Source: Candidatus Binatia bacterium
Lineage (GTDB): Bacteria > Desulfobacterota > Binatia > Bin18
Assembly (NCBI GenBank): GCA_022824615.1
Contig: JAJDZM010000099.1
Coordinates: 1-57,768 of the forward strand
Length of the DNA stretch: 57,768 nucleotides
Direction: 5' to 3'
Under the pieces are notes generated by a model. It saw only the letters and a program-made list of their open reading frames with translations. It was not told the origin of the DNA and did no database searches. Shown one piece after another: positions 9,555-33,378 of the stretch (the first letter of the stretch is position 1; every line of letters starts with the position of its first letter). The translations under genes and the position numbers were made by a program.

Positions 9555-9581
9555 CCGCGGTCCAGTAATGAGGGAGTGATT

Positions 9582-10004: not shown

Positions 10005-10088
10005 TCGGTTGGGTCCCAGGGTCGATTGAGTCCATGGAGTCAAACCCAACCGACCCAATAAACTCAATTGACCCAATTGACTCAAATC
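10005..10088. repeat. GACCCAAT-type repeat, copy a (element B)
   Basis: The stretch consists of variants of the decamer (C)GACCCAAT/TGACTCAAT and their complements. The outermost arms, 10005-10014 and 10044-10053, are perfect 10-bp complements (TCGGTTGGGT). Further copies follow to 10088. It starts directly after the DUF35 stop and lies 100 nt before the PHP gene, so it would form a hairpin in an operon mRNA. Related stretches are at 16119, 33379 and 34341. Confidence 0.75.
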
Positions 10089-10186
10089 GTTCGCTTCTGG
10101 CACTATAAAAGATTGGCAGCCAGAAAAACTGCTTCGACAAAAGGAGGGAGAAAAGCCGACTTCGCTCGCCGGTTCTCAGACTACCC

Positions 10187-10864
10187 ATGGCACGAGTAAT
10201 TGATCTCCACCTGCACTCTGAAGCCTCGGACGACAGCCGTGCGCCGGTTGAGGCTTACCTCAAGTGGCTGGCCCGTAAACGCGACGAACGGCCGCTGGAC
10301 GGTATCGTGCTGACCGAGCACCGCCAGTTCGACACCCGGAGCGACTACCGGGCGCTTGAGGACAAGTATGGCATGCTGATCCTCAAAGCCTCTGAGGTCG
10401 AAACCGAGTACGGGCACGTGCTTGTGTATGGGGTCAATGACGCAATGCTGCAACGCTTCGACTTCTCTAATGTCCGACTGCGAGCACAAGAGCTGATTGA
10501 CGAAGTAACACGTATGGGCGGGGTGGCCATGCCGTGTCACCCGGGTCGGCCTACCATTGGGCTGATTGAGCACTATGAAAACCGCCCTCCGCTTGAGGGG
10601 GTTGTTGGCGTCGAAGCCCTGAACGGCGGCAGCAAAAAAGGTGAGAACGAACGCGTGGCTGAGTTGATCGATACGTATGGCTACCACGCGTTTGGGGGGA
10701 GCGATGCCCATCTGGTGAGCTTTGTCGGGATTTGCGCCACAGAGTTTGAGAAAGATATTACGAATACGGAAGAGTTGGTTGAGGCGCTGCGAACGGGCGG
10801 CTACCGACCGGTTGATTTTCGTGTCCGGCGCGCCCCGGCCCAGCCGGCATCCAGTCGCACCTAG
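10187..10864 (+). CDS. PHP-domain metal-dependent phosphoesterase
   Basis: A 225-residue PHP domain. Metal-binding motifs appear in order: HLHSEASDD, VLTEHRQF, LKASEVETEYGH (Glu), MPCHPGRPT and FGGSDAH. These usually coordinate three metal ions for phosphate-ester hydrolysis. It has no polymerase or histidinol-phosphatase extension and is a stand-alone enzyme. An AAGGAGGGAG lies at 10141, about 36 nt before the ATG, too far for normal use, and no closer in-frame start was found. Its place between the thiolase pair and the hot-dog dehydratases suggests a shared operon but the substrate is unknown. Confidence 0.85.
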   Translation: MARVIDLHLHSEASDDSRAPVEAYLKWLARKRDERPLDGIVLTEHRQFDTRSDYRALEDKYGMLILKASEVETEYGHVLVYGVNDAMLQRFDFSNVRLRAQELIDEVTRMGGVAMPCHPGRPTIGLIEHYENRPPLEGVVGVEALNGGSKKGENERVAELIDTYGYHAFGGSDAHLVSFVGICATEFEKDITNTEELVEALRTGGYRPVDFRVRRAPAQPASSRT

Positions 10865-10875
10865 GAGAGACGCGC

Positions 10876-11319
10876 ATGGCGCTTGAATTTGACCGGTCCA
10901 TTTTAGGCCAGGTATTTGACGAAACGGACTTTCCGCCGGTTGAGAAAACCGACCTCTTACGATTTGCGGACGCGCTGGGAGAGACCAACCCGCTCTACAC
11001 CGACGAAGAAGCGGCGATGCATGGACCCTATGGCGGCTTGGTGGCGGCTCCGACCTATGTGACACGGCTCCGACCCAAAAAAATGACACCCGAGCATATG
11101 CCACGCTTCGGCAAGGTCGGCTTTGACGGCGGACGTGATGTTGAGATTTTTGCCCCGGTCCGGCCGGGTGACAGGCTGAAAATGGTCAGCACCATACATG
11201 ATATTTACGAGAAAACCGGGCGCAGTGGCTCGATGTATTTCATCGTTCTGCGGAATGAGATCACGAACCAGGACGGCCAGAAGGTTGCCATTGTTGACCA
11301 TAGGATTATGCAGCGATGA
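10876..11319 (+). CDS. FAS1-type (MaoC N-domain) dehydratase
   Basis: A 147-residue hot-dog protein of the MaoC_dehydrat_N class: LLRFADALGETNPLYTDEEA, GGLVAAPTYVTR, and the strand AIVDHRIM. It overlaps the next, MaoC-like gene by 4 nt. Such pairs form heterodimeric enoyl-CoA or 3-hydroxyacyl-CoA (de)hydratases, the catalytic Asp/His usually being on the second subunit. Good ribosome site AGGAGAGA. Together with the thiolase pair this supports an operon for beta-oxidation-like processing of an unknown acyl-CoA. Confidence 0.85.
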   Translation: MALEFDRSILGQVFDETDFPPVEKTDLLRFADALGETNPLYTDEEAAMHGPYGGLVAAPTYVTRLRPKKMTPEHMPRFGKVGFDGGRDVEIFAPVRPGDRLKMVSTIHDIYEKTGRSGSMYFIVLRNEITNQDGQKVAIVDHRIMQR

Positions 11320-11738
11320 AAACACTCTATTTTGAAGAGGTTGAAGAAGGCGATGAGTTGCCCCCTATCGACCTGCTCCTGACCAAGGACTTTGTCCGCA
11401 CATACGCCAAGACGGCCGGCATGGATTTCCCACGTTTCACAGATGATGAAGGGGCGCGTCAGGAGGGCCTGCCGGGCATGATCGCGCCGGGGGTCTTAAG
11501 TATGGGGCTGCTGGCTCGACTGATCGGCGAGTGGAATCAAGCGGCGCAGATTACCCGGATCGGCACGACGTTTCGCAGTCCGGTCCTGCCTGACTGTCAT
11601 ATTCACCTGCTGGGCTTTGTCACCCAAAAGGATGCAGAACAGCATACGGCGGAGTGCGATATCTGGATGGAGAACGATGATGGAGAACGCTGGGTCATTG
11701 GAACGGCGACCGTTCTGCTGCCAACCCGGAACTCCTAG
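11316..11738 (+). CDS. MaoC-like hot-dog dehydratase subunit
   Basis: A 140-residue hot-dog protein beginning MKTLYFEEVEEGDELPPIDL. The hydratase-2-like segment KDFVRTYAKTAGMDFPRFTD is followed by GMIAPGVLSMGLLARLIGEW. The usual N-x-x-H of (R)-hydratases appears as DFPRFTD, so the catalytic His is missing at the expected place. It may be a binding or structural partner, or work with the paired subunit at 10876. The 4-nt overlap with that gene indicates a complex. Followed after 18 nt by mlaA. Confidence 0.8.
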   Translation: MKTLYFEEVEEGDELPPIDLLLTKDFVRTYAKTAGMDFPRFTDDEGARQEGLPGMIAPGVLSMGLLARLIGEWNQAAQITRIGTTFRSPVLPDCHIHLLGFVTQKDAEQHTAECDIWMENDDGERWVIGTATVLLPTRNS

Positions 11739-11756: not shown

Positions 11757-12524
11757 ATGCAAAAACAACGACTTGGCTACATTATGGTTCTCTGTTTGGT
11801 CAGTGTCCTCGGGCTTGGCCCGCATACGCCAATAGCTTTTGCTCAGAATGGAGCAATGCAGCCGGGGCTGGATGACCCACTGGACATGCTTGACAGCCCC
11901 GCCCCGGCCTACGAACCGTCTGTTTTTGAACCCTTTAATGAGAAGATGTTCTCCTTCAACATCTGGATGGACGAACATATCCTCCGACCGGTTGCCCGTT
12001 CCTATGCCGGGGCTGTACCGGAGCCTGCGCGGCTCGGCGTGCGCCGTTTTTTTCATAATATCGGGGTTGTGCCGCGCTTCGCCAATAGCCTCTTTCAGCT
12101 TAAGCTGGACGGTGCGGCGCGGGAAGCCGGACGCTTTATGATTAACACGACGATCGGCGGTCTCGGCTTTTTCGATGTAGCCAAAAACAAGTTCGGGCTC
12201 GAAACCAGCGAAGAAGACTTTGGTCAAACGCTCGGGAAATATGGCGTGGGTTCGGGTCCGTATCTGGTGCTGCCCTTTATCGGACCTTCCACGGTGCGGG
12301 ATGCCATTGGTCGGGTCGCGGATGGAGCCATGGACCCGAAGACCTATTTTTTATCCACGGTCGAAGTGACGGCGACGGATGCGGGTACAATGGTCACCAA
12401 TGCGGTCAACGAACGCTCCCTCAATCTTGAGCTCTTCGAGAGTGTGGATCGCTACTCTCTTGATATGTATAGCGCGGTGCAAGACTTCTATATGCAAAAT
12501 CGGGAGAGGCAGATCGCAGAATAA
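11757..12524 (+). CDS. mlaA: MlaA/VacJ-family outer-membrane lipid protein
   Basis: A 255-residue MlaA homologue. Family blocks: FEPFNEKMFSFNIWMDEHIL, VRRFFHNIGVVPRFANSL, GRFMINTTIGGLGFFDVA, EDFGQTLGKYGVGSGPYLVLPFIGPS (read as consecutive blocks), and DRYSLDMYSAVQDFY. MlaA removes phospholipids from the outer leaflet of the outer membrane and hands them to MlaC. The signal peptide ends AFA-QN with no lipobox Cys at the cleavage site; most MlaA proteins are lipoproteins, so this one may be periplasmic or anchored differently. It heads the run mlaA, mlaC/hpnM-like, hpnN. Other mla genes (MlaFEDB) are not in view. Confidence 0.93.
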   Translation: MQKQRLGYIMVLCLVSVLGLGPHTPIAFAQNGAMQPGLDDPLDMLDSPAPAYEPSVFEPFNEKMFSFNIWMDEHILRPVARSYAGAVPEPARLGVRRFFHNIGVVPRFANSLFQLKLDGAAREAGRFMINTTIGGLGFFDVAKNKFGLETSEEDFGQTLGKYGVGSGPYLVLPFIGPSTVRDAIGRVADGAMDPKTYFLSTVEVTATDAGTMVTNAVNERSLNLELFESVDRYSLDMYSAVQDFYMQNRERQIAE

Positions 12525-12583
12525 GCCTCTGGCCTCTTGCAAACACCAGGAAAACAGCGACTGGCGTATCGAGGGGTGTGATC

Positions 12584-13174
12584 GTGGTCAAAACTCTCCT
12601 TTTGGTGACAGGTCTCCTTTTTCCTCAGCTCGGTTGGGCCGACTCTCCGGCGGAGGTAACCAAACGGCTGATTTCTACCATGCAGTCGTGTGGGCAAGAC
12701 TTTGGTTTGCCCTCCGCTCCCTCGCAGTGCACCAATGAAGAGATCGAAAAAAACCTGGCCATTGCTCAACTGTCGCGCTGGCTGATGGGGCCGCACTGGG
12801 ACACCCTCGGCCAAGAGAAGCAGGCTGATTTCATTAACCTCCTGACACGCTTGCTGCGCGAGCTGGCCTATCCCAGAGCGTCGGAATTTCTGGCTGACAC
12901 GCAGTTCGAATACGGCGACACGCAGCAGCAAGGGAATGAGGCCCTGACCGAGGTCTCGGTCATCAATCCTGACGAAGGGCGGGTGACCATCGGTTTTCGG
13001 CTCAATCAGTCGGAGGGTGTATGGAAGATCTGGGACGTCCGGCTCGACGGGGTCAGTATGGCCAGCAACCTGCGCAAACAGGTGCAATCGCTCATGTCCA
13101 AACAGTCCTACGAAGAGTTGGTGGAGCGGATGCAGCAGACAATTGCGAACGCCAAGACCGACGAGGCCGGATAA
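12584..13174 (+). CDS. hpnM: MlaC/Ttg2D-family periplasmic protein, HpnM-like
   Basis: A 196-residue secreted protein: signal peptide to GWA-DS, then the MlaC/toluene-tolerance fold (LSRWLMGPHWDTL, FINLLTRLLRELAYPRA, VWKIWDVRLDGVSMASNLR). MlaC proteins carry lipids across the periplasm; HpnM is the member encoded beside hpnN in hopanoid loci. The start is the GTG at 12584, since GAGGGG lies 8 nt upstream; a GTG at 12578 is too close to it. Next to hpnN, this is the probable shuttle for hopanoids or related lipids. HpnM rather than general MlaC is inferred from the neighbours. Confidence 0.85.
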   Translation: MVKTLLLVTGLLFPQLGWADSPAEVTKRLISTMQSCGQDFGLPSAPSQCTNEEIEKNLAIAQLSRWLMGPHWDTLGQEKQADFINLLTRLLRELAYPRASEFLADTQFEYGDTQQQGNEALTEVSVINPDEGRVTIGFRLNQSEGVWKIWDVRLDGVSMASNLRKQVQSLMSKQSYEELVERMQQTIANAKTDEAG

Positions 13175-13365: not shown

Positions 13366-16200
13366 GTGGAGACACCAGCCGTGCAGGCGACCCCTCCGTC
13401 CTTTAAACAACGCCTCGTTGCCCTGGAAAAACGGGTCCTGCGGGCTTGCGCTCGGGGCATCGTTTCGTACGCAAAGACGGCCCTGGCCGTCTGTTTGCTG
13501 CTGACTGTTGCGGCGTCACTCTACACCGCACAGCACCTCGAACTCGTCACCGGCCGCAATGATCTGATCTCGACCGAAAAGCGCTACCTGCAACTCGATG
13601 AGGAATATTCCGAAGAGTTTGTTGGCGTGGACCAGGTGGCCGTGGTCGTTGAACCGCAAGACATCCCGCAGGGCAAAGCCTTTGTGACACGGCTGGGTGA
13701 ACGACTCGCTCGGGAGCAGGAACATATTGCTGAGATTTTTTACCAGGTGGATGTCTCCTCCCTGGAAGGCAAAAAGCTGCTCTACCTGCCGGCTGAGGAT
13801 TTGCGCGATTTGCGGCGGAGTCTTGAAGACTCGCAAGAGATTATTCACGAACTGCTGACAAACCCCGGCTTGAATACGCTGTTCGAGGCGATCAACACCC
13901 AAGTCAGCAGTGCCGTGGTTTCGCACCTGGTTGACGACATCCTTGGGCTGGGAGTCCCGCTGGATGAAGATTCCGGCGAGTTCTCCGACTCTCAGTTGTC
14001 CTTCCTCACCGCGTTGTTACAAGAGATCGCGCGGGAGCTGTACGGACAAGACTCCCGCTACCGGTCTCCCTGGGCTGAGTTTTTTAGTGGGACGGCCCAG
14101 CTCGATGACGACGGCTTCCTCATTGCCGAGAACCGCGCATACATGTTCCTCATGGTCGAGGCGAAAGAAGACGCCGCTGCGGGTTTCAACGACCTCCAGG
14201 ATTCGATAGCGACCATTCGGCGGGCAATTGCCGACCTGAAGACGGAGTTTCCGGGTCTGGAGGCTGGCGTCACCGGCACGAAGGCGCTGGGCAATGATGA
14301 AATGCTCAGTGCTCAGCACGATACGGCCGTAGCAACGGTGATAGCCCTGTCGGGTATTGCCCTCCTCTACTTGATCTTTTTCCGACGTATTCGACATCCG
14401 CTTTTCATCGTCTCATCGCTCATGATCGGCCTGAGCTGGACGCTGGGTTTTGTCACCCTCTCAGTCGGTCATCTGACGATTATTACCGTTTTCATCGCGC
14501 CGATGCTGCTCGGCTTGGCCGACGACTTCGGCGTCCATTTCATGACCCGCTACGAGGAAGAACGGGGCAAGGGAAAAAACCAGGCCGAAGCTATTACCAT
14601 CGTGTTTGAACAGACCGTTCCCAGTATTATCGCAGGGGCGTTGACCACCTCGCTCGCCTTTTTTGCGGTCATCCTGGCAGACTTTCGCGGGGTTCAGGAA
14701 CTCGGCATCATCTCGGGCGGAGGCATCCTGCTGTCCGTTCTCGCGATCCTGACTTTCCTGCCAGCTTTGATCGTAGGGCTGGACTCGGTCTGGCCCTGGC
14801 GTGTTCCCGTGGGCCAGCAGACGGTCTTGCAGGCAACGTTTTCCGGTCTGGGTAAATATGTCGAACAAAAGAGAAGCCTCCTTTTCGGCATCGCCGGGCT
14901 GGGAACGGCGGCGGGCCTTCTGGCACTGCCGTGGGTCTCTTTTGACTATAATTTGCTGAACCTCCAGGCACACGGCACAGAGTCGGTGGAGTGGGAAAAG
15001 CGCATTATCGAAAACTCCGAACGCTCGTCCTGGAATGCCCTGGCAACAGCACCGACGCCGGAAGCGGCACGCCAAAAGGCACAAGCGTTTGCGGCACTGC
15101 CCAGCGTAGAAACCGTCGAGAGCGTCGCCTCGCTGATTCCGGACGGACAGCCGGAACGCCTTCACCTCCTGGCGCTCATCCGTCCACTGCTCAGCGAACT
15201 CCCACCGCTCCGCAATGATCCCCAGGCAGTGGAGGTCGAGCAGCTCGAACAGACTCTGGATAAGCTCCGCCTCAAAATCCGCGATCAGGAAAACGGCAGT
15301 GCCACCCTCCTGCACGAGGCGCGCCGACACCTGCTGGCCGTTTTTGAAGCACTCCGAACGCTGCCCAAAGCGGCCGTCCAACAGCGCCTTGACCTTTTTC
15401 AGGACGCGCTGTTTCTTGACTTTCAGGATAAATGGTCTCTGCTCAGGAATAACCTGTCGCCGGCCGGCCCGATTACCTTTGCCGATGTCCCGCCGCAGTT
15501 GCGCAGCCGCTTTGTCAACCGGGACGGCCAGCGGTATCTGATACAGATATACCCCAAGGAAAATATCTGGGAGCGCGAGCCCCTGACGGAGTTCGTTCGG
15601 CAGTTACGCACGGTTGACCCGGATGTCACCGGCTCCCCGATTATTGGCTACGAGTCTATTGGGGCGATGCAGGCTGGCTATATTGAGGCGGCCTGGTATG
15701 CCTTCCTCGCTATCCTGGTCGTCACTTTTTTGGCGCTCCGACGTGTCACGGATGCCCTGCTGGCCGTCCTGCCGCTCGGGCTGGGTATGATCTGGACCGC
15801 GGGCCTGATGTGGCTGGGGGACGTGCAGTTTAATCTGGCCAATATGGTTGCCGCCCCCCTGATTATCGGTATCGGCGTGGAGAATGGCATCCATCTCGTC
15901 CATCGTTTCCGGGTAGGCCGTGACGTCTCGGTCGTCAGCCTGATTGCCGGCAGTACCGGCCAGGCGGTTGTGCTGTTCTCGCTGACGACCATGGTCGGGT
16001 TTGGCAGTCTCATGGTCGCCCAGTACTACGGCATTTTCAGTATGGGCCTCCTGCTGACCCTGGCAGTCGGGAGTGTCTTGCTCGCCTCTATTGTGATCCT
16101 CCCGCTGCTTTTATATGAGTCTATTGGGTTTATTGGGTCCTTTGCGTCTGACCCAATGGACCCAATAAACCCAATAGACCCAACGGACTCTCATGGTTAG
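13366..16200 (+). CDS. hpnN: Hopanoid-type RND transporter HpnN
   Basis: A 944-residue MMPL/RND permease. One transmembrane helix near residue 40, a large periplasmic loop to about 310, five helices with the sterol-sensing-like motif GLADDFGVHFMTRYEEE, a second periplasmic loop from about 500 to 760, and five further helices with IGIGVENGIHLVHRFR. HpnN moves hopanoids from the inner to the outer membrane. The start is a GTG (METPAV). The last 28 or so residues (YESIGFIGSFASDP, then DPINPIDPTDS) are encoded by a perfect 22-bp inverted repeat, unlike a normal RND tail. Its stop lies 8 nt inside the next gene (16193), so expression is coupled to the decarboxylase cassette. No gene is evident in 13175-13365. 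Confidence 0.92.
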   Translation: METPAVQATPPSFKQRLVALEKRVLRACARGIVSYAKTALAVCLLLTVAASLYTAQHLELVTGRNDLISTEKRYLQLDEEYSEEFVGVDQVAVVVEPQDIPQGKAFVTRLGERLAREQEHIAEIFYQVDVSSLEGKKLLYLPAEDLRDLRRSLEDSQEIIHELLTNPGLNTLFEAINTQVSSAVVSHLVDDILGLGVPLDEDSGEFSDSQLSFLTALLQEIARELYGQDSRYRSPWAEFFSGTAQLDDDGFLIAENRAYMFLMVEAKEDAAAGFNDLQDSIATIRRAIADLKTEFPGLEAGVTGTKALGNDEMLSAQHDTAVATVIALSGIALLYLIFFRRIRHPLFIVSSLMIGLSWTLGFVTLSVGHLTIITVFIAPMLLGLADDFGVHFMTRYEEERGKGKNQAEAITIVFEQTVPSIIAGALTTSLAFFAVILADFRGVQELGIISGGGILLSVLAILTFLPALIVGLDSVWPWRVPVGQQTVLQATFSGLGKYVEQKRSLLFGIAGLGTAAGLLALPWVSFDYNLLNLQAHGTESVEWEKRIIENSERSSWNALATAPTPEAARQKAQAFAALPSVETVESVASLIPDGQPERLHLLALIRPLLSELPPLRNDPQAVEVEQLEQTLDKLRLKIRDQENGSATLLHEARRHLLAVFEALRTLPKAAVQQRLDLFQDALFLDFQDKWSLLRNNLSPAGPITFADVPPQLRSRFVNRDGQRYLIQIYPKENIWEREPLTEFVRQLRTVDPDVTGSPIIGYESIGAMQAGYIEAAWYAFLAILVVTFLALRRVTDALLAVLPLGLGMIWTAGLMWLGDVQFNLANMVAAPLIIGIGVENGIHLVHRFRVGRDVSVVSLIAGSTGQAVVLFSLTTMVGFGSLMVAQYYGIFSMGLLLTLAVGSVLLASIVILPLLLYESIGFIGSFASDPMDPINPIDPTDSHG
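16119..16179. repeat. Perfect 22-bp inverted repeat (element B, copy b) at hpnN 3' end
   Basis: The left arm 16119-16140 is the exact reverse complement of 16158-16179 over 22 bp, with a 17-nt loop that contains one more repeat unit. The units are of the form TATTGGGTYY. It lies within the last codons of hpnN and ends 13 nt before the start of the next gene. It would form a very stable mRNA hairpin while being translated. Confidence 0.9.
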
Positions 16201-16678
16201 CGGACCCCAGTTTGTGCAACACCTCAGGAATGCCGGCTTCGACTTTTTCACCGGGGTGCCCTGCTCTTTGGTCAAAGGGGTGATTGCCACGCTTGAAGAA
16301 CGAGGTGGTTATATTGCCGAGACGCGGGAAGACGCGGCGGTGGGCCTGGCGGCCGGAGCCTATATGGCCGGCAAACAACCCGTTATCATTATGCAGAACT
16401 CGGGCCTGGGAGTCTGCCTGAACGCGCTGTCTTCTCTCAGTTTGATCTATGCCTTGCCCTGCCTGCTGCTGATTACGTGGCGCGGCTATCAGGGCAAAGA
16501 CGCACCGGAGCATATCATTATGGGCGATATCCTGCCCGACCTGTTATCCACCCTGAAAATTCCGTATCGGGTGCTTGAAGAACAGACCCTGGAGGACGCG
16601 ATTGGCTGGGCCACCTCGACCCTGAAGCAGACGAGTCGCCCGACGGCGCTGGTCCTTCCACCTGGAGTTACCGCATGA
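16193..16678 (+). CDS. Phosphono-/sulfopyruvate decarboxylase, alpha subunit
   Basis: A 161-residue TPP-binding N-terminal half-enzyme: FFTGVPCSLVKGVI, ETREDAAVGLAAGAYMAG (catalytic Glu of the TPP fold), IIMQNSGLGVCLNALSSL, WRGYQGKDAPEH and MGDILP. It closely follows the pattern of AepY/Fom2 phosphonopyruvate decarboxylase and of ComD sulfopyruvate decarboxylase. The split into two genes is the usual state for ComDE, while phosphonopyruvate enzymes are more often fused, so the substrate is not settled. The start lies inside hpnN and the stop overlaps the beta subunit by 4 nt, giving tight coupling to the hopanoid transporter. Confidence 0.85.
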   Translation: MVSGPQFVQHLRNAGFDFFTGVPCSLVKGVIATLEERGGYIAETREDAAVGLAAGAYMAGKQPVIIMQNSGLGVCLNALSSLSLIYALPCLLLITWRGYQGKDAPEHIIMGDILPDLLSTLKIPYRVLEEQTLEDAIGWATSTLKQTSRPTALVLPPGVTA

Positions 16679-17244
16679 ATCTGGCCCAGGCCCTGAGCGT
16701 AGTTATCCCTGCCCTACAGGACGCCTTGGTTGTCCATGCGAATGGGTTTATTTCACGGGAGTCCTTCAATCTTGAGGACCGCTTGGGCAATTTCTATATG
16801 ATCGGCTCCATGGGCCTGGCCTCGTCTATTGCGCTCGGCGTGGCCCTGAGTAAACCCGAGCGGCGCGTGGTCGTCTTTGACGGCGATGGCAATGTCCTCA
16901 TGAATATGGGCTCACTGGCCCTGATTGGTGTGCAGCGGCCACGCAATCTGGTCCACCTTGTTTTTGATAACGAAGTCTACGGCTCGACCGGAAACCAGCC
17001 GACGATCTCCAGTCGCGTAGCACTCGATGCAGTGGCGCGCGCGAGCGGTTATGTTGATGTGCGCCGCGTTGAAGAGGCCGACCAACTACGCGCCGCGACG
17101 CAGGAGTTGCTGGCAAAAGACGGACCGTCCTTTCTGTTGGTTAAAATTGAGCCGGACCGGGAAGAGCGACATATTGGTCGGATTACACACGAGCCGCAGC
17201 ACATCGTCCGGCGCTTTATGGAGGCCATTAATCAGGACCTATAG
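16675..17244 (+). CDS. Phosphono-/sulfopyruvate decarboxylase, beta subunit
   Basis: A 189-residue C-terminal TPP half. The TPP-Mg motif is FDGDGNVLMNMGSLALIG followed by LVFDNEVYGSTGNQPT. The N-terminal part has SRESFNLEDRLGNFYMIGSMG, matching the phosphonopyruvate/sulfopyruvate decarboxylase family. With the alpha subunit it should decarboxylate the 3-phospho(no)- or 3-sulfopyruvate to the acetaldehyde. The aminotransferase gene starts 25 nt later. No PEP mutase or phosphosulfolactate synthase gene, which would supply the substrate, is in this window. Confidence 0.86.
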   Translation: MNLAQALSVVIPALQDALVVHANGFISRESFNLEDRLGNFYMIGSMGLASSIALGVALSKPERRVVVFDGDGNVLMNMGSLALIGVQRPRNLVHLVFDNEVYGSTGNQPTISSRVALDAVARASGYVDVRRVEEADQLRAATQELLAKDGPSFLLVKIEPDREERHIGRITHEPQHIVRRFMEAINQDL

Positions 17245-17269
17245 GCCCCATGTCCCTCACAATTCCACG

Positions 17270-18358
17270 ATGCCACAATACATTCTTCTGAATCCCGGCC
17301 CAGTTAATGTTTCTCCGCGTGTTCGGCAGGCCCTCCTGCGTGGAGACCTATGCCACCGGGAAGCGGAGTTTTCCGACCTGCTGGCCGCGGTTCGCGCCAA
17401 GCTGCTACAGGCGTTCGCCCCGGAGGGCTATACCGCAGTGGTGGTGAGCGGCTCGGGCACCCTGGCGGTTGAAGCCATGGTCTCCTCGGCCCTGGCCGAA
17501 GGGGAGAAACTCCTCGTGATTAACAACGGCGTCTATGGCGATCGGATGCGCCAGATGGCCGAAGCCCACCGTATCCCGACCGTAGAACTGACCTATGCCT
17601 GGACCGAAGCGCCAAGCCCGGAACAGATTGAATCCACCCTGAAAGATGACCCCGCTATCGCGGCGGTGGCCCTGGTCCAACATGAAACCACAACCGGCCT
17701 GCTCAACCCGGTGACTGAAATTAGCAGAGTTGTGCGTCAGCAGGGTCGGGTGTTTCTGCTTGACGCGGTGAGCGGGCTGGGCGGCGAAGACCTTGATGTC
17801 GTGCGCGATAGCGTGGACCTGTGTGCCTGTACGGCGAACAAATGCATCCAGGGCCAGCCGGGTGTGGCCTTTGTGTTGGTTCGGAACGAAGTCATGACGG
17901 CCATGCAGGGCTATCCCCGTCGCTCGTTATACCTCCACCTGCCGCTGCACTGGGAGGCGCAGGAACGACGGAGCATTCCATTTACTCCGGCCATCCCAGC
18001 CTGGTATGCGCTGGATGCCGCCCTTGATGAACTCCTGGAGGAAACACCCGCGGGACGGGTCGAACGTTATCGTCGGGCCGCCCGGTTTCTGCGCGCCGGC
18101 TTTACGGAACTCGGATTCGCCTTTCTCCTTCCCCCGGAATTACGATCCAGTTCCCTGACCTCTCTGGCCCTGCCCCAGGGCATTTCGTATCCAGACTTGC
18201 ATGACGGTCTCAAACACCGCGGCTTTGTCATTTACGAGGGACAGGGGGAACTCCGCACCGATATTTTCCGAGTGGCTAATATGGGCCATCTGACTTTGGA
18301 CGATTTTCAGCGTTTTCTTGACGCCCTTAAAGACGTGTTATCAGGTGGGAAGTTATGA
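17270..18358 (+). CDS. 2-Aminoethylphosphonate transaminase-like aminotransferase (class V)
   Basis: A 362-residue PLP enzyme starting at MPQYILLNPGPVNVSPRVRQ. Hallmarks are LLNPGPVNVS, CHREAEFSDL, VVSGSGTLAVEAM, and the lysine loop CACTANKCIQGQPG with Lys191 as the likely Schiff base; ANKCIQG-PG is the form seen in AEP transaminases (PhnW). In a biosynthetic cassette it would turn phosphonoacetaldehyde into 2-aminoethylphosphonate; with sulfoacetaldehyde the product would be taurine. The frame is open upstream to 17027, but homology begins at 17270. It overlaps the nucleotidyltransferase by 4 nt (ATGA). Confidence 0.85.
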   Translation: MPQYILLNPGPVNVSPRVRQALLRGDLCHREAEFSDLLAAVRAKLLQAFAPEGYTAVVVSGSGTLAVEAMVSSALAEGEKLLVINNGVYGDRMRQMAEAHRIPTVELTYAWTEAPSPEQIESTLKDDPAIAAVALVQHETTTGLLNPVTEISRVVRQQGRVFLLDAVSGLGGEDLDVVRDSVDLCACTANKCIQGQPGVAFVLVRNEVMTAMQGYPRRSLYLHLPLHWEAQERRSIPFTPAIPAWYALDAALDELLEETPAGRVERYRRAARFLRAGFTELGFAFLLPPELRSSSLTSLALPQGISYPDLHDGLKHRGFVIYEGQGELRTDIFRVANMGHLTLDDFQRFLDALKDVLSGGKL

Positions 18359-19104
18359 AAGCGATTATCCTCGCGGCTGGTGTTGGAAAACGCCTTCAGA
18401 CCGTCACCGACCAGCGGCCCAAATGTATGATTCGGGTCGGTGGCAAAACCTTGCTCGAACGTAGCCTTACGGCTCTAGGCGCTGCTGGGGTCACAGAGGC
18501 GGTCATCGTGATCGGCTATCGTGGAGATATGATTGTCGAAGAAATCGGCGAGCGGTGCGGCACGGTGGCCGTTCGTTATATCCGGAACGAGCAGTACGAA
18601 AAGGGAGCAATCCTGTCGCTCTGGAGCGCGCGTAACGAGTTTGATACCGCCCTGCTGATCATGGATGCCGACGTATTGTTCCCGGTTCGTTTGCTGCAAC
18701 GCTTAGTGCAGTCCAGACACACAAGCTGTTTTTTGCTTGACGCGAGTTCCGAGAATACCGGTGAGGAACAAATGCTGCTCACCCGGGCCGGGCGGGTGCT
18801 GACGATTATCCGGGGCGGTACGGGCGACTACGATCTGGTAGGCGAGTCGGTCGGTTTTCTCAAAGTCGCCCAAGACGCCGCACCACTCCTCCGTTCTATT
18901 CTCGACGATTGTGTGGCTCAGGGCCGAGACATGATCGAACACGAAGAAGCCTTCCCGGTGTTTCTGGTCCAGCACCATGTCGGCTTTGAGCAGGTTGACG
19001 ACCTGCCCTGGACGGAAATCGATTTTCCGCACGACCTCGAACACGCCGAACGTGACATCCTGCCCGATATCGAACGGCTTGACGCGGATGAGGAGGGAGA
19101 TTAG
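18355..19104 (+). CDS. LicC/PntC-like nucleotidyltransferase
   Basis: A 249-residue sugar-nucleotidyltransferase-fold enzyme. The nucleotide-binding signature is ILAAGVGKRL with the later RPKCMIRVGGKTLL lysine; the metal Asp is in LIMDADVLF and a second in WTEIDFPHDLEHAE. Size and the IDFP-DLE-AE motif match choline-phosphate and AEP cytidylyltransferases (LicC, PntC) rather than sugar enzymes. It would make a CMP-activated head group ready for transfer to a lipid or glycan. The 4-nt overlap with the aminotransferase supports one pathway. The transferase that uses the product is not identified in the window. Confidence 0.83.
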   Translation: MKAIILAAGVGKRLQTVTDQRPKCMIRVGGKTLLERSLTALGAAGVTEAVIVIGYRGDMIVEEIGERCGTVAVRYIRNEQYEKGAILSLWSARNEFDTALLIMDADVLFPVRLLQRLVQSRHTSCFLLDASSENTGEEQMLLTRAGRVLTIIRGGTGDYDLVGESVGFLKVAQDAAPLLRSILDDCVAQGRDMIEHEEAFPVFLVQHHVGFEQVDDLPWTEIDFPHDLEHAERDILPDIERLDADEEGD

Positions 19105-19155
19105 GGGTTAGGGGGTAGGGGTTGGGGGTTAGGGGTTAGGGGTTGGGGATTGGGA
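19105..19155. repeat. Degenerate GGGGTTA/GGGGTTG tandem repeat
   Basis: Seven or so 7-nt units of the type TAGGGGT/TTGGGGG follow directly after the nucleotidyltransferase stop codon. It resembles telomere repeats but lies inside a chromosome-like operon. A similar run (GGGAGTTGGGGGTTGG) is inside the double CaiB gene near 50000. Confidence 0.75.
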
Positions 19156-19165
19156 GACGGAGGCC

Positions 19166-19238
19166 GGGCAACCACAGGGGGTTGCCCCTACGATTTGCAC
19201 TCCCTCTCCCCTGGAGGGAGAGGGCTAGGGTGAGGGGG
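19166..19238. repeat. Composite hairpin repeat C1
   Basis: Two hairpins in a row: GGGCAACC/GGTTGCCC (19166-19173 with 19180-19187) and CCCTCTCCC/GGGAGAGGG (19202-19210 with 19216-19224), followed by the tail CTAGGGTGAGGGGG. The same composite, in the same order and with nearly the same tail, is at 43993-44065. The GAGGGGG of the tail lies 5-6 nt before the GTG start of hpnK and is its only evident ribosome site. Confidence 0.85.
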
Positions 19239-19243
19239 CTTCT

Positions 19244-20137
19244 GTGCCGTTAGAGGACAGGGAGGGACTGGCTGCTCGCTATCTCATTGTCAACGGGGAC
19301 GACTTCGGCCTGTCCGCTCAGGTCAACGCTGGCATACTGCACGCCCGTCGGCACGGCATTCTGACCAATACCAGCCTCATGGTCACGGCTCCGGCCTGGG
19401 AGGAAGCGGTCGAGCTTGCCCGCTCGACACCGAGCCTCGGGGTTGGACTGCATGTGACCTTAGTCCAGGGACGGGCCGTTCTCTCCAAGCAGCACCTCCG
19501 CGCGATCATCGACAGCGAAGGGAATTTTGCCCACGACCCAACCCAGGTCGGATTACAGTATTATTTCTCCCGGCGGGCGCGGGAGGAAGTTCGGGTCGAG
19601 TGTCGGGCTCAGCTTGAGCGTTTTCTGGAAACGGGATTACCTCTGTCTCATATTGATGGACATCTCAATATCCATATGCACCCGGTCGTTATGGACGCCC
19701 TCCTGGCGCTCGCACAGGAATACTCCATTCCGGCCATGCGCCTGACCCGAGAAGACCTGGCGACCAGCCTGACGCTCGACCCGCGCCATGCCTTGAGGAA
19801 ACGCTGGGAGTCCGCTGTCTTTACATCTCTCGCCCGGACGACGGAAAAAAAGCTGCGTCACGCCCGTATTCCCTACCCGGATCATCTGTTTGGCCTACAT
19901 CAAAGTGGGGCATTGGATGAATCCTGTTTGCTTGGTCTGCTTCCGCGACTCCAAGCCGGCGTAACGGAGCTGTACTGCCATCCGACCCGCCGGCCGTGTG
20001 CCGAGGTCGAACGGCGGACACCAACCTATCACAGAGATGTTGAGCTTGCGGCGCTCACAAGTCCAACGGTACGGGCGGCGACCGCGGAAGAGAATATTCG
20101 GCTCGTGAATTACCACGCGCTCCCTGACGTTAAGTGA
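19244..20137 (+). CDS. hpnK: Hopanoid-associated deacetylase HpnK
   Basis: A 297-residue YdjC/ChbG-type carbohydrate deacetylase: LIVNGDDFGLSAQVNAGILH (Asp metal ligands), HGILTNTSLMV, VGLHVTLVQGRAVL and the histidine cluster SHIDGHLNIHMHPVV, then TELYCHPTRR. HpnK removes the acetyl group from the N-acetylglucosaminyl head group that HpnI adds to bacteriohopanetetrol. The GTG start at 19244 is preceded by GTGAGGGGG, contributed by a palindromic repeat. It lies downstream of the nucleotidyltransferase and faces hpnI, with 12 nt between the stops. Confidence 0.92.
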   Translation: MPLEDREGLAARYLIVNGDDFGLSAQVNAGILHARRHGILTNTSLMVTAPAWEEAVELARSTPSLGVGLHVTLVQGRAVLSKQHLRAIIDSEGNFAHDPTQVGLQYYFSRRAREEVRVECRAQLERFLETGLPLSHIDGHLNIHMHPVVMDALLALAQEYSIPAMRLTREDLATSLTLDPRHALRKRWESAVFTSLARTTEKKLRHARIPYPDHLFGLHQSGALDESCLLGLLPRLQAGVTELYCHPTRRPCAEVERRTPTYHRDVELAALTSPTVRAATAEENIRLVNYHALPDVK

Positions 20138-20149
20138 AGGAACAGGCGG

Positions 20150-21304
20150 TTAGCCGACGCGCACCATGCGTCCGTCTTTTTGAAGCCGGAAGGTATACTC
20201 CCGCCAGCGGACCGTGTTGCCCCACAAGCTGGCACACCAGACAACAAAAGAGAGAAGGTCCGTGAGAAGAGTCAGCAGAATAGCGAGACGCGGCAGCCTC
20301 GATTGCAGAAAGATGGTGTTCATCAGAGCGGCGGTCAGGAGGCGTACCCCGATGACACTAAGGGCGAGAACAGTCATCTCTACGGACGACCAAAAACAGA
20401 GCAGGCTCACACAGGCCCAGACCGTGCCAAACGTCACAACCGTACTGATATACCCGCCGGGACGACAGTTTCGTTGCGTTCGCGCCCAGCGCAACTGATG
20501 GTAAAACAGCCCGCGTAGCGAGCCCGCATCGGGACGGGTTTCCACGACCGTGGGCAGGACTCGCAACCGATACCCGGCCTGGCTGATGAGATACCCGAGG
20601 TGATAGTCATCCGCCAGATAATCAGACAGCCTGGCAAATCCCCCAATCGCGTCGAGGCAGGTACGCTTGAGCGCCATGGTTGCGCCGAAGGCGTACGAGG
20701 GCTGTTCTATCTGGCTGGCGACCACGACCTGGGTGGTAAAAGTCGTATTGACCATGAGCGATTCCAACAGGGCCGGCAGGGGTTGTGCGGAACCGCCACG
20801 ATACACGCAGGTGACCAGGCCTGTTTCCGTCTGGGTTAAGGGCGGGATAATCGTCTGCAAGTAATCGGACTCAACACAGACATCACTATCGGTAATGACG
20901 AGATAGTCATACTTCATCTGCGGTGTCAGATGGTGCAGGGTGCTGACCTTGTAATTGGTCCCGATCACAGAGGGCGCAACAACCAGAGTAATATCACACT
21001 GGGGAAAGTCCCGCTGCACTTTGGTGACAATAGCCGCCGCCGGATCATCGGGGTCACGGACGCCGCAGAGTATTTGAAAGGTCGGGTAATCGATCCGACA
21101 AAAGCTCGCCAGACTGTCGTACAGATCGGGCGGGGCGCCTTTGAGCGGCTTGAGAATAGTGACCGGCGGAAGCGCCGTACGAGGAGTCGAACCCGGCCGG
21201 AAAAAACGCCAAGCCGCATAGATACTAAAGAGATAATAGACCAGGGCAATACACAACAGGCCTGCCAGGGACCAGAAAACAAGCAGGGACGGGGCCTCAG
21301 ACAC
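20150..21304 (-). CDS. hpnI: Hopanoid glycosyltransferase HpnI
   Basis: A 384-residue membrane glycosyltransferase of family 2. An N-terminal helix, then the GT-A domain with VTILKPLKG, VITDSDVCVESDYL (metal-binding DSD), YAFGATMALKR, YLADDYHLGYLI and the acceptor motif YHQLRWARTQR, followed by about three C-terminal transmembrane helices. HpnI transfers N-acetylglucosamine to bacteriohopanetetrol at the cytoplasmic membrane. It runs opposite to hpnK and in the same direction as hpnJ, separated from it by a 265-nt repeat-filled gap. Confidence 0.92.
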   Translation of the reverse strand: MSEAPSLLVFWSLAGLLCIALVYYLFSIYAAWRFFRPGSTPRTALPPVTILKPLKGAPPDLYDSLASFCRIDYPTFQILCGVRDPDDPAAAIVTKVQRDFPQCDITLVVAPSVIGTNYKVSTLHHLTPQMKYDYLVITDSDVCVESDYLQTIIPPLTQTETGLVTCVYRGGSAQPLPALLESLMVNTTFTTQVVVASQIEQPSYAFGATMALKRTCLDAIGGFARLSDYLADDYHLGYLISQAGYRLRVLPTVVETRPDAGSLRGLFYHQLRWARTQRNCRPGGYISTVVTFGTVWACVSLLCFWSSVEMTVLALSVIGVRLLTAALMNTIFLQSRLPRLAILLTLLTDLLSFVVWCASLWGNTVRWREYTFRLQKDGRMVRVG

Positions 21305-21569: not shown

Positions 21570-23015
21570 CTACCCACTCACCGCAGCAGACGTGGTGCTC
21601 ATCTCCCGCCGCTTCCGCATGGTGCGGAAAAAATCTTTGCCTTCCTGCCACATCCGTTTTCGCTCCTCCGGGTCACGCGCCATCTTTTTCACAGCCTTGA
21701 AGATGTAGCGCGGGCGCAGGTAATACGAGCGGTAAAATTTCTCAACCGTTTCAAAAATTTCTTCCCCGGACAGGTTGGGGTAGTTAATCACGCACTGCTG
21801 ATAGCCCGATTCACCCACCATGTCCTCGGCCTTGATATAGCCGTTGTCGAGGGCGAAATCGTAAAAGGCGGTGCCAGGATAGGGGGAAGCCAAAGAGACC
21901 TGAATGGTTTCCGGATTCATCTCCCGAGCGAAACGCATGGTCTCCTGCATGGTCTCACGGGTTTCCCCCGGCAGGCCCAAAATAAAGGTGCCGTGGATCA
22001 GGATGCCCAGCTTGTGGCAGTCTCGGGTGAAACGCCGTGAGGTTTCGAGGGCCACGCCTTTTTTAATATTCTTGAGAATGGCCGCGTTCCCCGACTCATA
22101 ACCGACCACAAACAGCCGCAGCCCGCCGTCTTTCAAAACCTTGAGGGTCTCGTAGTCAACATTCCCGCGCGCATTGGTAGACCAGCACAGGCCCATAGCG
22201 CCCATCTTCTTTGCGATTTCGCGTGCACGTTTCGGGTCGGCCGTAAACGTATCGTCATCAAAAAAGACCTCTTTCATACCCGGAAAGAGGCGCTTCATTT
22301 CCTGCACTTCTTCAATGACATTGCCCACGGAGCGGGTACGGTAGGAGTGGCCGGTGGTCACCTGCGGCCACAGACAAAACGTGCAGCGCGCCGGACACCC
22401 CCGTCCGGTGTACAACGACACATAGGGATACTGGCAATACGGACTGTTATACTTGCGGAAGTCCAAATCCCGGTCGTAAATCTGAGTGACAAAGGGTAAC
22501 TGGTCGAGTTCCTCATCGGTGAGCGTCGGACGTTCAAGATTATGATGGATCTGTCCGTCCTAGCGATAGCTGATACCGCGGATGTCCTGCCAGTCCCATC
22601 CCTCGGCAACCTCTTTCATGGAGTAGTCAAACTCTTTCCGCGCAACAATATCGATAGCTTCAGAAATCTGTAAGGTCTTCTCCGGCTCGGCCGTGGCCTG
22701 ACCGCCTACAAACGCGATACGACAGTCCGGATTTTTCTCTTTGATCAACTCGGCGGTCTGCGCGTCCAATTTCACCGACGGCGTACTGGTGTGCAACACA
22801 ACAAAATCGTACTCCTTGGCGACCTCAACGGTCTGCGCCTGATTCAGTCCTTCGGGCGGCGCATCCAGAACGCGACTGTTCTCGATCATGCCGGCCGGAT
22901 AACACAGCCAGGTCGGATACCAGAACGACCAGACCTCGCGCGTCGCCTGATAACGTGAGCCTGCCCCTCCATCGAAATTTTCATATGCAGGCGGATTCAA
23001 AAACAACGTACGCAT
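21570..23015 (-). pseudogene. hpnJ: Radical SAM cyclitol-ether enzyme HpnJ, interrupted by an in-frame amber codon
   Basis: The product would be 481 residues. Codons 1-151 give the B12-binding-like N domain (MRTLFLNPPAYENFDGGAGS, FWYPTWLCYPAGM). Codon 152 is TAG (22560-22562), after which the same frame continues DGQIHHNLERPTLTDEELDQ, then the radical SAM cluster loop GRGCPARCTFCLWPQ (CxxxCxxC) and the family C terminus. HpnJ converts the glucosamine head group of bacteriohopanetetrol to the cyclitol ether. Nothing else is damaged, which suggests a recent nonsense change, a sequencing error or readthrough. Ribosome site AAGGAGAG precedes the ATG. If inactive, the pathway would stop at BHT glucosamine. 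Confidence 0.88.
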
Positions 23016-23306: not shown

Positions 23307-25979
23307 ATGAGCAAGCTGAAGTGGTGGCAGCCCTCTCTTCTCGTAAGTGTATTCACCTTGACCGGCGCATTTGCAGTCGGAGCGCAAGAAGCGGAGCCGC
23401 AAGAGCCGGCTGGAGGGCAAGACATCGAGCAGGTCATAGACCTCGGAGACCTCAGGGTGGTCGGCTCCCGCGTGGCGGGTCGTTCGGCCCAGGATTCGCC
23501 GGTGCCGGTCGACGTCATTCAAGGGGAAGACTTGCAGACCTACGGTATTCGGGACATGGACTCACTGCTGTCCGCCACCGTCCCCTCCTATAACGTGAGC
23601 CAGGAGCCCATCAGCGACGAGGCCACCTTCGTCCGGCCGGCCACGCTACGCGGTCTGCCGCCGGACTCCACACTGGTACTGGTCAACGGCAAACGTCGCC
23701 ACCGTGGGTCGGTGATCAATTTCCTGGGTTCTCCGAACTCCAGAGGATCACAGGGGGCCGATATCTCCAACATCCCGTCCATTGCCTTGGAGAGCGTCGA
23801 GGTGCTACGCGATGGAGCGGCTGCCCAGTACGGATCGGACGCGATTGCCGGCGTGCTGAATTTCAAACTCAGGGAAGACACCGAGGGCCTGACGGTACAA
23901 ACCAGCTATGGTCAGAACTACCACGGCGACGGCGACAAGGTGAACGTGGCCGCCAACCTGGGCGTACCGCTGACCGAGAATGGCTTTGCCAACCTCAGCT
24001 TCGAGTTCAACAACGTGGACGAAACCAGCCGTAGCGTACAGCGCAGCGATGCCCGAGGCTTGATTGAGGCCGGCAACATGGATGTGCGTCGGCCCGCGGC
24101 GCAGATCTGGGGAGCGCCCGAGATTCAGTACGACTACAAATTCTTCGGCAACCTGGGCTTGGACCTGGAGGAGATCAACAGCCGCATCTATGCCTTCGGT
24201 AACTATGCGGAGCGCAAGGTCGAGGGCGGTTTCTACTTCCGTAATCCCAATACGCGCAACGGGGTGTTCCGCGGTCCCGGCGACCTTCACAAAATTATCG
24301 ACATCGGAGACGGTTTCGACCCGAGGCCCATCTCGGAGGGCGGAGATTTGCTCGAAAACGGATTATCCAGCCGCTGCCCTGAAGTGCCGAAGCACCCGGC
24401 GGCCGATTACTCGAACGTGTCGCTGCCCGACCATTGCGCCATGTTCAACACCCAGTTTCCGGGCGGCTTCACTCCGCGCTTCGGCGGCTATGTGCGCGAC
24501 TGGAGCATCGCCTTTGGCTTGCGCGGGACGCTGGAGGATCTGGAGGGCGCCTATGCGCTGCTCGACGGCTGGTCCTACGACGTCAGCGCCTACTTCGGCG
24601 AGAACAGTGTTGACTATTTCATGCTCAACACGATCAACCCGCAACTCCTGGCGGTCAACCGGGTCGTTCCGACGGAATACCGGCCCGGCGGTGTGAGCCA
24701 GACTGAGAAGACGTTCAACCTGGACATTTCCAAGCCATTTGATGTCGGTCTCTTCTACTCCGACCTGAATATGGCCTTTGGCTTCGAGTACCACATCGAA
24801 GAGTACGAAGTGGAACTCGGCGGGGAAACCTCTTGGTACGTGGCCCCCGGAAACCGGCTGACGGCGCAGGGCCTCGGCGTCGGCTCGAACGGGTTCACCG
24901 GATTCGGCCCCAACATCATCGGCGATCATCAGCGGAATAACTATGCCCTCTACATGGACCTGGAAGCTGAGGTGATTAAAAATGTGACCCTTGGCGTGGC
25001 CGGACGGTATGAGAACTTTGACAAGCCGATCGGCGAGTCCGTCAACGGGAAGGTGTCAGCCAGATGGCAACTCCTGGAAATGCTGGCCATGCGCGGTGCG
25101 GTCAGCTCGGGTTTTCGCGCCCCAACACCCGGCCAGGCCAATGTGAACAAAATCACCACGTCCTTTGACGCCGAGCTTGGCGGGCTGATAGACGACGCCA
25201 CCTTTCCTGCCCACCACCCGGCTTCGGCTTTCTTCGGCGCCAGCGATTTGACCCCGGAAAAATCCGTCAACTACTCGGCGGGCATTGTCTTCAACGTGGC
25301 CGATGTCGATGTCACCGTCGACTACTACCGTATCAAGATGCAGGACCGCATCGTCCGCAGCAGCCGATTTAATGTTGCGGAAGAACTCGCCAAGCGGGGC
25401 ATCACCCGGGCGGAATTCGACGCCGCGGTCGGGCCGAATCAGATCTCGGTGCTCCGCTTCTATACCAACGACTTCGACACCACCACCCAGGGCGTTGATG
25501 TGGTAGCGACCTATCCGTTGCAATCGGTTGCCGGCTTCACCCAATTCACGCTTGTTGCGAACTGGAACAAGACCGAGGTGGACAGCCGGACTCCGGAGTT
25601 CATCAGTGATAAGCTGGTACGACAAATCGAAGAGGGCCTGCCGCAGTTCCGCTTCTCGCTGACGGCCGATCACAACTGGGGGCCGTGGCGCTTCCTGTCC
25701 CGTCTGTACTACTACGACCGCTTCCGCGACTACCCGACCGATAGCAGCTTCGGCTTTAATGCTGGCGAGCGCTTTCTGATGGATATGGAACTCTCGTACA
25801 CCTTCCTGAACCTGCCGTTCATGGAGGCGGCCACCTTTGCGGTCGGCGCGGAAAACATATTTGATCAGTATCCACGCAGGAACCCGAAAGCGACTGACGC
25901 CGGCCTGAAATACCCGGAAACCTCGCCCTACGGCTTCAACGGCGGGTTCTACTACCTGCGGGCCGGGTTCGAGTTCTAG
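23307..25979 (+). CDS. TonB-dependent outer-membrane receptor, paralogue 1
   Basis: An 890-residue receptor: signal peptide to GAQEAEP, TonB-box-like DLRVVGSR, plug domain about 55-190 (VPVDVIQGEDLQTYGIRDMD, LRGLPPDSTLVLVNGKRRHR, LRDGAAAQYGSDAIAGVLNF) and a 22-strand barrel ending in LRAGFEF with a terminal Phe. A cysteine pair (SSRCPEVP ... LPDHCAMF), conserved in all three paralogues, may form an extracellular disulfide. Compared with the other two it has an insert of about 15 residues before the first Cys. The substrate is unknown; the position inside a hopanoid locus does not by itself identify it. Confidence 0.93.
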   Translation: MSKLKWWQPSLLVSVFTLTGAFAVGAQEAEPQEPAGGQDIEQVIDLGDLRVVGSRVAGRSAQDSPVPVDVIQGEDLQTYGIRDMDSLLSATVPSYNVSQEPISDEATFVRPATLRGLPPDSTLVLVNGKRRHRGSVINFLGSPNSRGSQGADISNIPSIALESVEVLRDGAAAQYGSDAIAGVLNFKLREDTEGLTVQTSYGQNYHGDGDKVNVAANLGVPLTENGFANLSFEFNNVDETSRSVQRSDARGLIEAGNMDVRRPAAQIWGAPEIQYDYKFFGNLGLDLEEINSRIYAFGNYAERKVEGGFYFRNPNTRNGVFRGPGDLHKIIDIGDGFDPRPISEGGDLLENGLSSRCPEVPKHPAADYSNVSLPDHCAMFNTQFPGGFTPRFGGYVRDWSIAFGLRGTLEDLEGAYALLDGWSYDVSAYFGENSVDYFMLNTINPQLLAVNRVVPTEYRPGGVSQTEKTFNLDISKPFDVGLFYSDLNMAFGFEYHIEEYEVELGGETSWYVAPGNRLTAQGLGVGSNGFTGFGPNIIGDHQRNNYALYMDLEAEVIKNVTLGVAGRYENFDKPIGESVNGKVSARWQLLEMLAMRGAVSSGFRAPTPGQANVNKITTSFDAELGGLIDDATFPAHHPASAFFGASDLTPEKSVNYSAGIVFNVADVDVTVDYYRIKMQDRIVRSSRFNVAEELAKRGITRAEFDAAVGPNQISVLRFYTNDFDTTTQGVDVVATYPLQSVAGFTQFTLVANWNKTEVDSRTPEFISDKLVRQIEEGLPQFRFSLTADHNWGPWRFLSRLYYYDRFRDYPTDSSFGFNAGERFLMDMELSYTFLNLPFMEAATFAVGAENIFDQYPRRNPKATDAGLKYPETSPYGFNGGFYYLRAGFEF

Positions 25980-26064
25980 GGCGTGTGAGGCATTCCGGTA
26001 CATGGCCACTACCATCTCAACTCTGACTGCAATTCCGAGAGCCGACACCTACTCTGGAGGACAT

Positions 26065-26915: not shown

Positions 26916-27027
26916 ACGCCCGTTACTCCTCTGTGCCGGACTGCGTAAACGAGCGGAGCCGGTGGACCCCTGTCAACTCTCGTCTTTTCTCGGGACGAGC
27001 AAGCATCCGTTATCGGAAAGAGCAGTG

Positions 27028-33367: not shown

Positions 33368-33378
33368 ACCTGGGGTTG

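Follow-up and report, generated by a model that had tools for sequence, protein, structure and literature searches.

A candidate 2-aminoethylphosphonate activation cassette linked to hopanoid genes in Binatia and other bacterial phyla

Hopanoids, the principal sterol analogues of bacteria, also serve as a major biomarker in the geological record. The closest described phosphonate system is the Pnt pathway, which comprises phosphoenolpyruvate (PEP) mutase, phosphonopyruvate decarboxylase, 2-aminoethylphosphonate (AEP) transaminase, and the cytidylyltransferase PntC (Rice et al. 2019, PMC6697681). In the available part of that study, mutases were filtered on the motif EDKX5NS, 22 of the removed proteins were fusions, and the main text contains the word "hopanoid" 0 times. 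On the hopanoid side, the nearest system is the bacteriohopanetetrol (BHT) cyclitol ether pathway, and "phosphono" is absent from the main text of a 2025 survey for it. A 2021 survey of Acetobacteraceae, as far as its available part goes, reported a pairing of hopene cyclase with PEP mutase in Roseomonas and suggested a hybrid cluster, an AEP route, and an unknown terpene-phosphonate (PMC8776678). Here, we analyze a 57,768-nucleotide (nt) stretch of a Candidatus Binatia bacterium (contig JAJDZM010000099.1; this whole stretch is called the window), in which a predicted cassette for AEP synthesis and activation lies between the hopanoid genes hpnN and hpnK.

All genes of the run are on the + strand. 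The hopanoid-type RND transporter gene hpnN (13366..16200) is followed by the genes for the alpha and beta subunits of a putative phosphonopyruvate/sulfopyruvate decarboxylase, PpdA (16193..16678; PF02776) and PpdB (16675..17244; PF02775), a PhnW/AepZ-type AEP aminotransferase (17270..18358), a PntC-like cytidylyltransferase (18355..19104), and hpnK, encoding a YdjC-type deacetylase (19244..20137; TIGR03473 313 bits, cut-off 233). hpnN and PpdA overlap by 8 nt, PpdA and PpdB by 4 nt, and the transaminase and cytidylyltransferase genes by 4 nt; gaps of 25 nt and 139 nt precede the transaminase gene and hpnK, respectively. The transaminase exceeds the cut-off of the AEP model (TIGR03301, 364.5 against 360.8 bits), and AEP transaminases are its best solved relatives. 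PpdB shares 44% identity across 178 residues with AepY, the single-chain enzyme of Roseomonas, which itself passes TIGR03297. The preliminary description of the window gave the coordinates and overlaps of this run correctly. The gene order to which it drew attention is not a chance arrangement, being complete in all six same-genus genomes and present as a core in two genomes of another genus. The 8-nt overlap is real in the window and is not a conserved feature.

We propose that the cassette makes and activates AEP for a membrane lipid of the hopanoid system, with a hopanoid as the most likely acceptor, an explanation that we hold at slightly below an even chance. Phosphonopyruvate would be supplied by a PEP-mutase-like enzyme encoded elsewhere in the genome, decarboxylated by PpdA/PpdB to phosphonoacetaldehyde, transaminated by the PhnW-like enzyme to AEP, and activated by the PntC-like enzyme to CMP-AEP (the cytidine monophosphate derivative). 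A cytidine diphosphate (CDP)-alcohol phosphotransferase, unlinked here and linked in relatives, would then transfer AEP onto the alcohol of a lipid. Our guess for the acceptor is a hopanoid side chain or aminosugar head (BHT or its HpnI/HpnK/HpnJ derivatives), and the resulting phosphonohopanoid would be carried outward by HpnN together with Mla-like proteins. Each of these reactions is predicted from the chemistry of its family. In our estimate, CMP-AEP synthesis is highly probable and a lipid as end product likely, and a hopanoid acceptor is plausible while remaining somewhat doubtful.

We regard two proteobacterial clusters, as annotated, as the strongest evidence. The cassette part of a Roseomonas marmotae plasmid holds vacJ, hpnN, a prenyl synthase gene, the cytidylyltransferase, a mutase-nucleotidyltransferase fusion, the decarboxylase, an LPG_synthase_TM gene, the AEP transaminase, and a CDP-alcohol phosphotransferase, and continues with ispH, hpnH, hpnG, shc (squalene-hopene cyclase), hpnE, hpnD, and hpnC; HpnN, HpnH, Shc, and the phosphonopyruvate decarboxylase each exceed a cut-off. 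Mycetohabitans rhizoxinica HKI 454 has the same phosphonate genes and a 2-oxoglutarate oxygenase, followed by dxs, hpnN, an hpnM-like gene, ispH, hpnH, hpnA, hpnB, shc, and hpnD. Its proteins score above the cut-offs (in parentheses) for HpnN, 1244 bits (1100), Shc, 758 (431), HpnH, 564 (225), HpnB, 545 (379), HpnD, 323 (279), PEP mutase, 404 (320), phosphonopyruvate decarboxylase, 447 (312), and AEP transaminase, 370.5 (361).

Further phyla were reached by a scan of bacterial and archaeal genomes, from which the best 80 loci were kept. Among the matches listed, the cassette occurs in records titled Nitrospirae/Nitrospira, Nitrospinota, Planctomycetota, and Candidatus Anammoxibacter. Within 198 genomes of the phylum of Nitrospira defluvii, the cytidylyltransferase (E ≤ 1e-30) was found in 55 and the cyclase (E ≤ 1e-60) in 89; all 55 cassette genomes have shc, compared with 34 of the 143 others (Fisher p 1e-25, related genomes not being independent). 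Thirteen additional cassette or cytidylyltransferase genomes, not counted elsewhere, include 10 with a cyclase over the cut-off, and at a Planctomycetota locus (L171) shc over the cut-off lies about 3 kb from PpdA. According to the available part of a report on newly cultured marine Nitrospirales, these carry shc and hpnH (PMC10579370). In Nitrospirota and Proteobacteria, the cassette comes with an LPG_synthase_TM membrane protein; one such protein (PF03706), a putative pathway member, is also encoded in the window about 9 kb past hpnJ (32321-33421, − strand). We tentatively suggest that at least four phyla (Binatota, Nitrospirota, Planctomycetota, and Pseudomonadota) make phosphonohopanoids through a CMP-AEP phosphotransferase, and that in Binatota and Nitrospirota the carbon-phosphorus (C-P) bond is formed by an unrecognized EDN..KRCS subfamily of PEP mutases, discarded by motif-based surveys.

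Within the class Binatia, the gene families, their conserved linkage, and their co-occurrence can be read from the genomes themselves. In a sample of 145 genomes, 36 contain a cytidylyltransferase match of at least 170 bits; G071, with a canonical cassette and an EDK..NS mutase, was kept apart, leaving 35 cassette genomes, and the loci of 31 were surveyed (all but G027, G055, G061, and G090). hpnN, hpnK, hpnI, or hpnJ lies within 5 kb of a cassette gene in 22 of these 31. The order hpnN-PpdA-PpdB-transaminase-cytidylyltransferase-hpnK-hpnI-hpnJ is unbroken in the six genus relatives (L036-L041). Two of them share the 8-nt overlap, and in the remaining four 17 to 243 nt separate hpnN from PpdA. 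Its first five genes recur in G013 and G015, of another genus in the same family, with a 4-nt hpnN/PpdA overlap; hpnK follows after further genes in G013 and is not in the stretch in G015. At three loci of family f8 (L050, L052, L053), the mutase fusion, PpdA, PpdB, transaminase, cytidylyltransferase, and CDP-alcohol phosphotransferase stand together beside hpnJ, with hpnI in two. The cytidylyltransferase gene is beside hpnK in 7 of 11 f5 loci, the phosphotransferase gene adjoins hpnJ-hpnI in G059, G065, and G080, and, judging by match coordinates, the mutase is likewise next to hpnJ in G027, G041, and G055. From these layouts, the hopanoid head-group genes and the AEP genes are mutually linked in varying arrangements. 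A record titled Klebsiella pneumoniae (L118) matches a Binatia cassette locus in gene content and is probably a mislabeled bin.

The window's genome (G000; about 5.0 Mb in 308 contigs, about 90% complete) encodes Shc (G000:C254, 672 bits) and HpnH (G000:C181, 375 bits), both over the cut-off, and the organism is therefore likely to make hopanoids. Among Binatia, a squalene-hopene cyclase exceeds the cut-off in 29 of the 35 cassette genomes and in 56 of the 110 others. G090 was counted as negative on the basis of two cyclase fragments, each below the cut-off. As a separate observation, HpnJ over the cut-off occurs where no cyclase reaches it in G021, G033, G045, G054, G065, G076, and G080, and in an eighth genome, G144, which has a cyclase fragment; HpnJ may act on non-hopanoid lipids in such Binatia.

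The cytidylyltransferase of the window is best fitted by PntC both in sequence and as a structural model, PntC being the best structural match among the matches listed. Arg15, Lys25, Lys153, and Glu196 of PntC, whose roles are taken from the available part of PMC6697681, align with R13, K23, R153, and E197, and these positions are invariant in 13 aligned sequences, the window's included. Position 104, which bears on the choice between AEP and phosphocholine, is D104 in the window as in LicC, versus Glu104 in PntC. A CDP-alcohol phosphotransferase (PF01066) is the recurrent partner of the cassette, linked to it in some other Binatia, Nitrospirota, and Proteobacteria; the window's genome has two relatives (C265 and C174), 50% and 42% identical to that of G009.

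The least certain enzyme of the proposed route is the mutase. The preliminary description had advised looking for pepM, and contig C75 of the window's genome indeed encodes a 559-residue mutase/nucleotidyltransferase fusion; it scores 277 bits with TIGR02320 (cut-off 320) and reads EDNIFPKRCS, departing from the canonical EDKX5NS. Among solved structures, the fusion comes closest to PEP mutase 5unc (277 bits), followed by phosphonopyruvate hydrolase 2dua (251) and PEP mutase 1m1b (211). The fusion exceeds 500 bits in 28 of the 35 cassette genomes; G003 has a fragment, and G038 and G070 have distant versions alone (39%). EDNxFPKRCSF (with Y for F in some Nitrospira), as against EDKxFPKxNS, is found in 14 of 15 and 18 of 21 rows of two alignments that share some genomes, the motif of L058 being read from a neighboring column. 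The exceptions are L062, L147, and L184, which have EDK..NS, and L138, with no motif; the canonical form is also that of the mutases of Roseomonas, M. rhizoxinica, G071, and Anammoxibacter. W44, S46, D58, D85, D87, E114, K120, R159, and H190 (1m1b numbering) are retained in the window's fusion. W44 and H190, common to mutase and hydrolase, are kept in the EDN type (except in the damaged L138) and absent from three lyase-like proteins.

In a tree drawn with midpoint rooting, the EDN type falls between three isocitrate-lyase-family proteins of the window's genome (EDQ; two with PKRCG) and the EDK mutases with the hydrolase. It is not resolved as a single clade, and this placement is tentative because the branches are long. 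Nine near-duplicate loci, the same-genus copies L064-L066, and L058 (for its length) were left out, and L138 was kept. We infer that the EDN..KRCS fusion is a PEP mutase. In 11 of 12 mutase loci from the same family, the mutase gene is followed by one for a single-domain squalene-cyclase-like protein (L064:11479-12444 and relatives), which is also part of the cassette in Anammoxibacter (L147) and in a Nitrospirales bin (L169). The model of this protein has a predicted local distance difference test (pLDDT) score of 92.6, and its fold is common to terpene cyclases and sugar 2-epimerases.

Several observations weigh against the proposal of a hopanoid-linked AEP cassette. HpnN, HpnM, PpdA, and PpdB are, by their scores, relatives below the curated cut-offs. 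In the window's genome the mutase and both phosphotransferases are on other contigs than the cassette, and the mutase motif is EDN..KRCS instead of EDK..NS. The mutase fusion was not found in four of the 35 cassette genomes (G013, G025, G061, and G090), and G025 is 98% complete, its locus holding the cytidylyltransferase alone. Nine of the 31 Binatia loci have no hpn gene, these including a 5-kb contig (L045) and a contig end (L049). Neither shc nor HpnH exceeds the cut-off in five of the 35 cassette genomes (G021, 98% complete; G031, 97%; G045; G065; and G080), G090 being left out of the five as it has HpnH, and the same is true of G052 and G094, with partial cassettes. In Burkholderia stagnalis and Cupriavidus, which carry the core cassette, the region of about 12 kb around the mutase contains no hpn match. 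Because of these cassettes and the five genomes, AEP transfer does not appear to be tied to hopanoids everywhere. Finally, because of shared ancestry, the counts in Nitrospirota and Binatia are not made up of independent cases.

It is possible, if somewhat unlikely, that the product is an ordinary phosphonolipid, the phosphotransferase placing AEP on diacylglycerol or a ceramide-like lipid. Joint assembly of the two lipids and their joint transport to the outer membrane would then account for the neighboring hopanoid genes. Diacylglycerol is a common substrate for CDP-alcohol phosphotransferases of this class, and cassettes without hopanoid neighbors, cassette genomes without shc and HpnH, and the LPG_synthase_TM protein found with the cassette in Nitrospirota and Proteobacteria all agree with it. 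However, it leaves unexplained why hopanoid head-group genes (hpnK, joined in some genomes by hpnI and hpnJ) are still found next to the cassette or the phosphotransferase where shc is absent. In all five shc/HpnH-negative genomes hpnK is still within 3 kb of the cassette, and in two of them, G065 and G080, hpnI and hpnJ adjoin the phosphotransferase. Such retention would be expected if HpnI, HpnK, HpnJ, and the cassette built an AEP-bearing aminosugar or cyclitol head on several lipids, a hopanoid being one aglycone and another polyol lipid serving in hopanoid-losing lineages. We consider this distinctly unlikely: losses may be overcounted in incomplete genome bins, and the proteobacterial clusters that were read have no annotated hpnI, hpnJ, or hpnK, HpnB being their sole glycosyltransferase.

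A surface glycan or lipid A could also receive AEP, with the hopanoid link reflecting merely shared outer-membrane biology. Published AEP clusters, in the available part of PMC6697681, serve mostly cell-surface tailoring, and an ArnT-like glycosyltransferase gene lies between the cytidylyltransferase gene and hpnK in other Binatia genera. We nevertheless find this destination improbable, the recurrent partner being a CDP-alcohol phosphotransferase and LicD having 0 matches in the window's genome. As to those genera, the ArnT-like gene follows the cytidylyltransferase gene in L042, L043, and L046, and another gene stands between it and hpnK in L043 (where that gene is phospholipid-methyltransferase-like) and in L046. 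The preliminary description had left open a sulfonate route; such a route, from sulfopyruvate through sulfoacetaldehyde to taurine, we regard as extremely improbable. The alpha and beta subunits score slightly higher on the sulfopyruvate models (TIGR03845, 134 bits, cut-off 148; TIGR03846, 188 bits, cut-off 222) than on the phosphonopyruvate model (TIGR03297, 131 and 186 bits), all below the cut-offs. However, the transaminase passes the AEP model, a PepM-like gene accompanies the same cassette in relatives, and the check for the phosphosulfolactate synthase ComA gave 0 matches in the roughly 90% complete genome. Taurine, moreover, lacks the phosphate or phosphonate group that such a cytidylyltransferase would activate. 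The phosphonate branch is well supported by the conserved order, the PntC-like enzyme, the mutase-like fusion, and two Proteobacteria in which hopanoid genes lie next to a complete AEP pathway. The suggestion of a hopanoid, or a co-exported lipid or glycan, with a phosphonate or sulfonate head group is supported in part, namely for the phosphonate; the lipid that receives AEP is a guess, and cassette genomes without shc and HpnH exist.

Several other features flank or interrupt the run. Upstream are an mlaA/vacJ-type lipoprotein gene (11757..12524, +; PF04333 1.4e-65) and an hpnM/mlaC-like gene (12578..13174, +; TIGR03481 49 bits, cut-off 160) before hpnN (TIGR03480 602 bits, cut-off 752). An mlaA/vacJ-type gene precedes hpnM-hpnN in genus relatives, and a VacJ gene adjoins hpnN in Roseomonas as well. 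Still further upstream (8406-11738) are genes that we take to be thiolase-like, OB-fold, PHP, and two dehydratase-like genes; their linkage to the hpn run is conserved both within the genus and in G015. The window also has a 9-bp repeat (GACCCAATG-like) at 16126-16190, 10019-10085, and 34340-34436, a 14-base pattern giving 14 matches where 0.68 would be expected; the repeat encodes the C-terminal tail of HpnN, and the overlap with PpdA comes directly after it. A G-rich TTAGGGG-type tandem repeat (19101-19154) lies between the cytidylyltransferase gene and hpnK. On the − strand beyond hpnK are hpnI, for the N-acetylglucosamine transferase of the BHT-glucosamine pathway (20150..21304; TIGR03472 370 bits, cut-off 310), and hpnJ, for the radical S-adenosylmethionine enzyme of the cyclitol-ether step (21570..23015; TIGR03471 727 bits when read whole, cut-off 578). 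hpnJ contains one in-frame TAG (22562-22560, − strand) in this assembly, with intact frames in the six genus relatives; it may be a real loss or an assembly error. Three similar TonB-dependent receptor genes lie in tandem downstream of hpnJ (23307-32324), with a small regulator-like gene between.

If the proposal is correct, a C-P head group would define a new polar lipid class in nitrite oxidizers and soil bacteria. It would also be a source of the phosphonates of soils and sediments and would give orphan phosphonate cassettes a function. If the EDN..KRCS mutases are active, motif filters undercount phosphonate producers. The claim is directly testable because the cultured M. rhizoxinica HKI 454, with its sequenced cluster, and Nitrospira defluvii carry the genes.

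The preliminary description stated that no described pathway joins these genes, which agrees with our literature search, but the hopene cyclase/PEP mutase neighborhood had already been noticed in Roseomonas (PMC8776678, available part). The search suggests that the pairing is known from there, with a phosphonate-head hopanoid lipid itself undescribed. That alphaproteobacterial neighborhood has the same cyclase/mutase pairing; the account, in its available part, includes no nucleotidyltransferase, phosphotransferase, or lipid head-group proposal and does not extend to Binatia, Nitrospirota, or Mycetohabitans. The Pnt pathway resembles the present system in having its chemistry in the same order, a cytidylyltransferase closest to that of the window, and a mutase fused to a nucleotidyltransferase, as in PMC6697681. 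It differs in the mutase motif, sequences without EDKX5NS having been dropped in the available part of that work, and here the decarboxylase is split, two nucleotidyltransferases are present, and hopanoid genes are linked. With the BHT cyclitol ether pathway, the window shares adjacent hpnI, hpnK, and hpnJ, all three proteins scoring over their cut-offs, and the difference is that here a phosphonate cassette lies between hpnN and hpnK.

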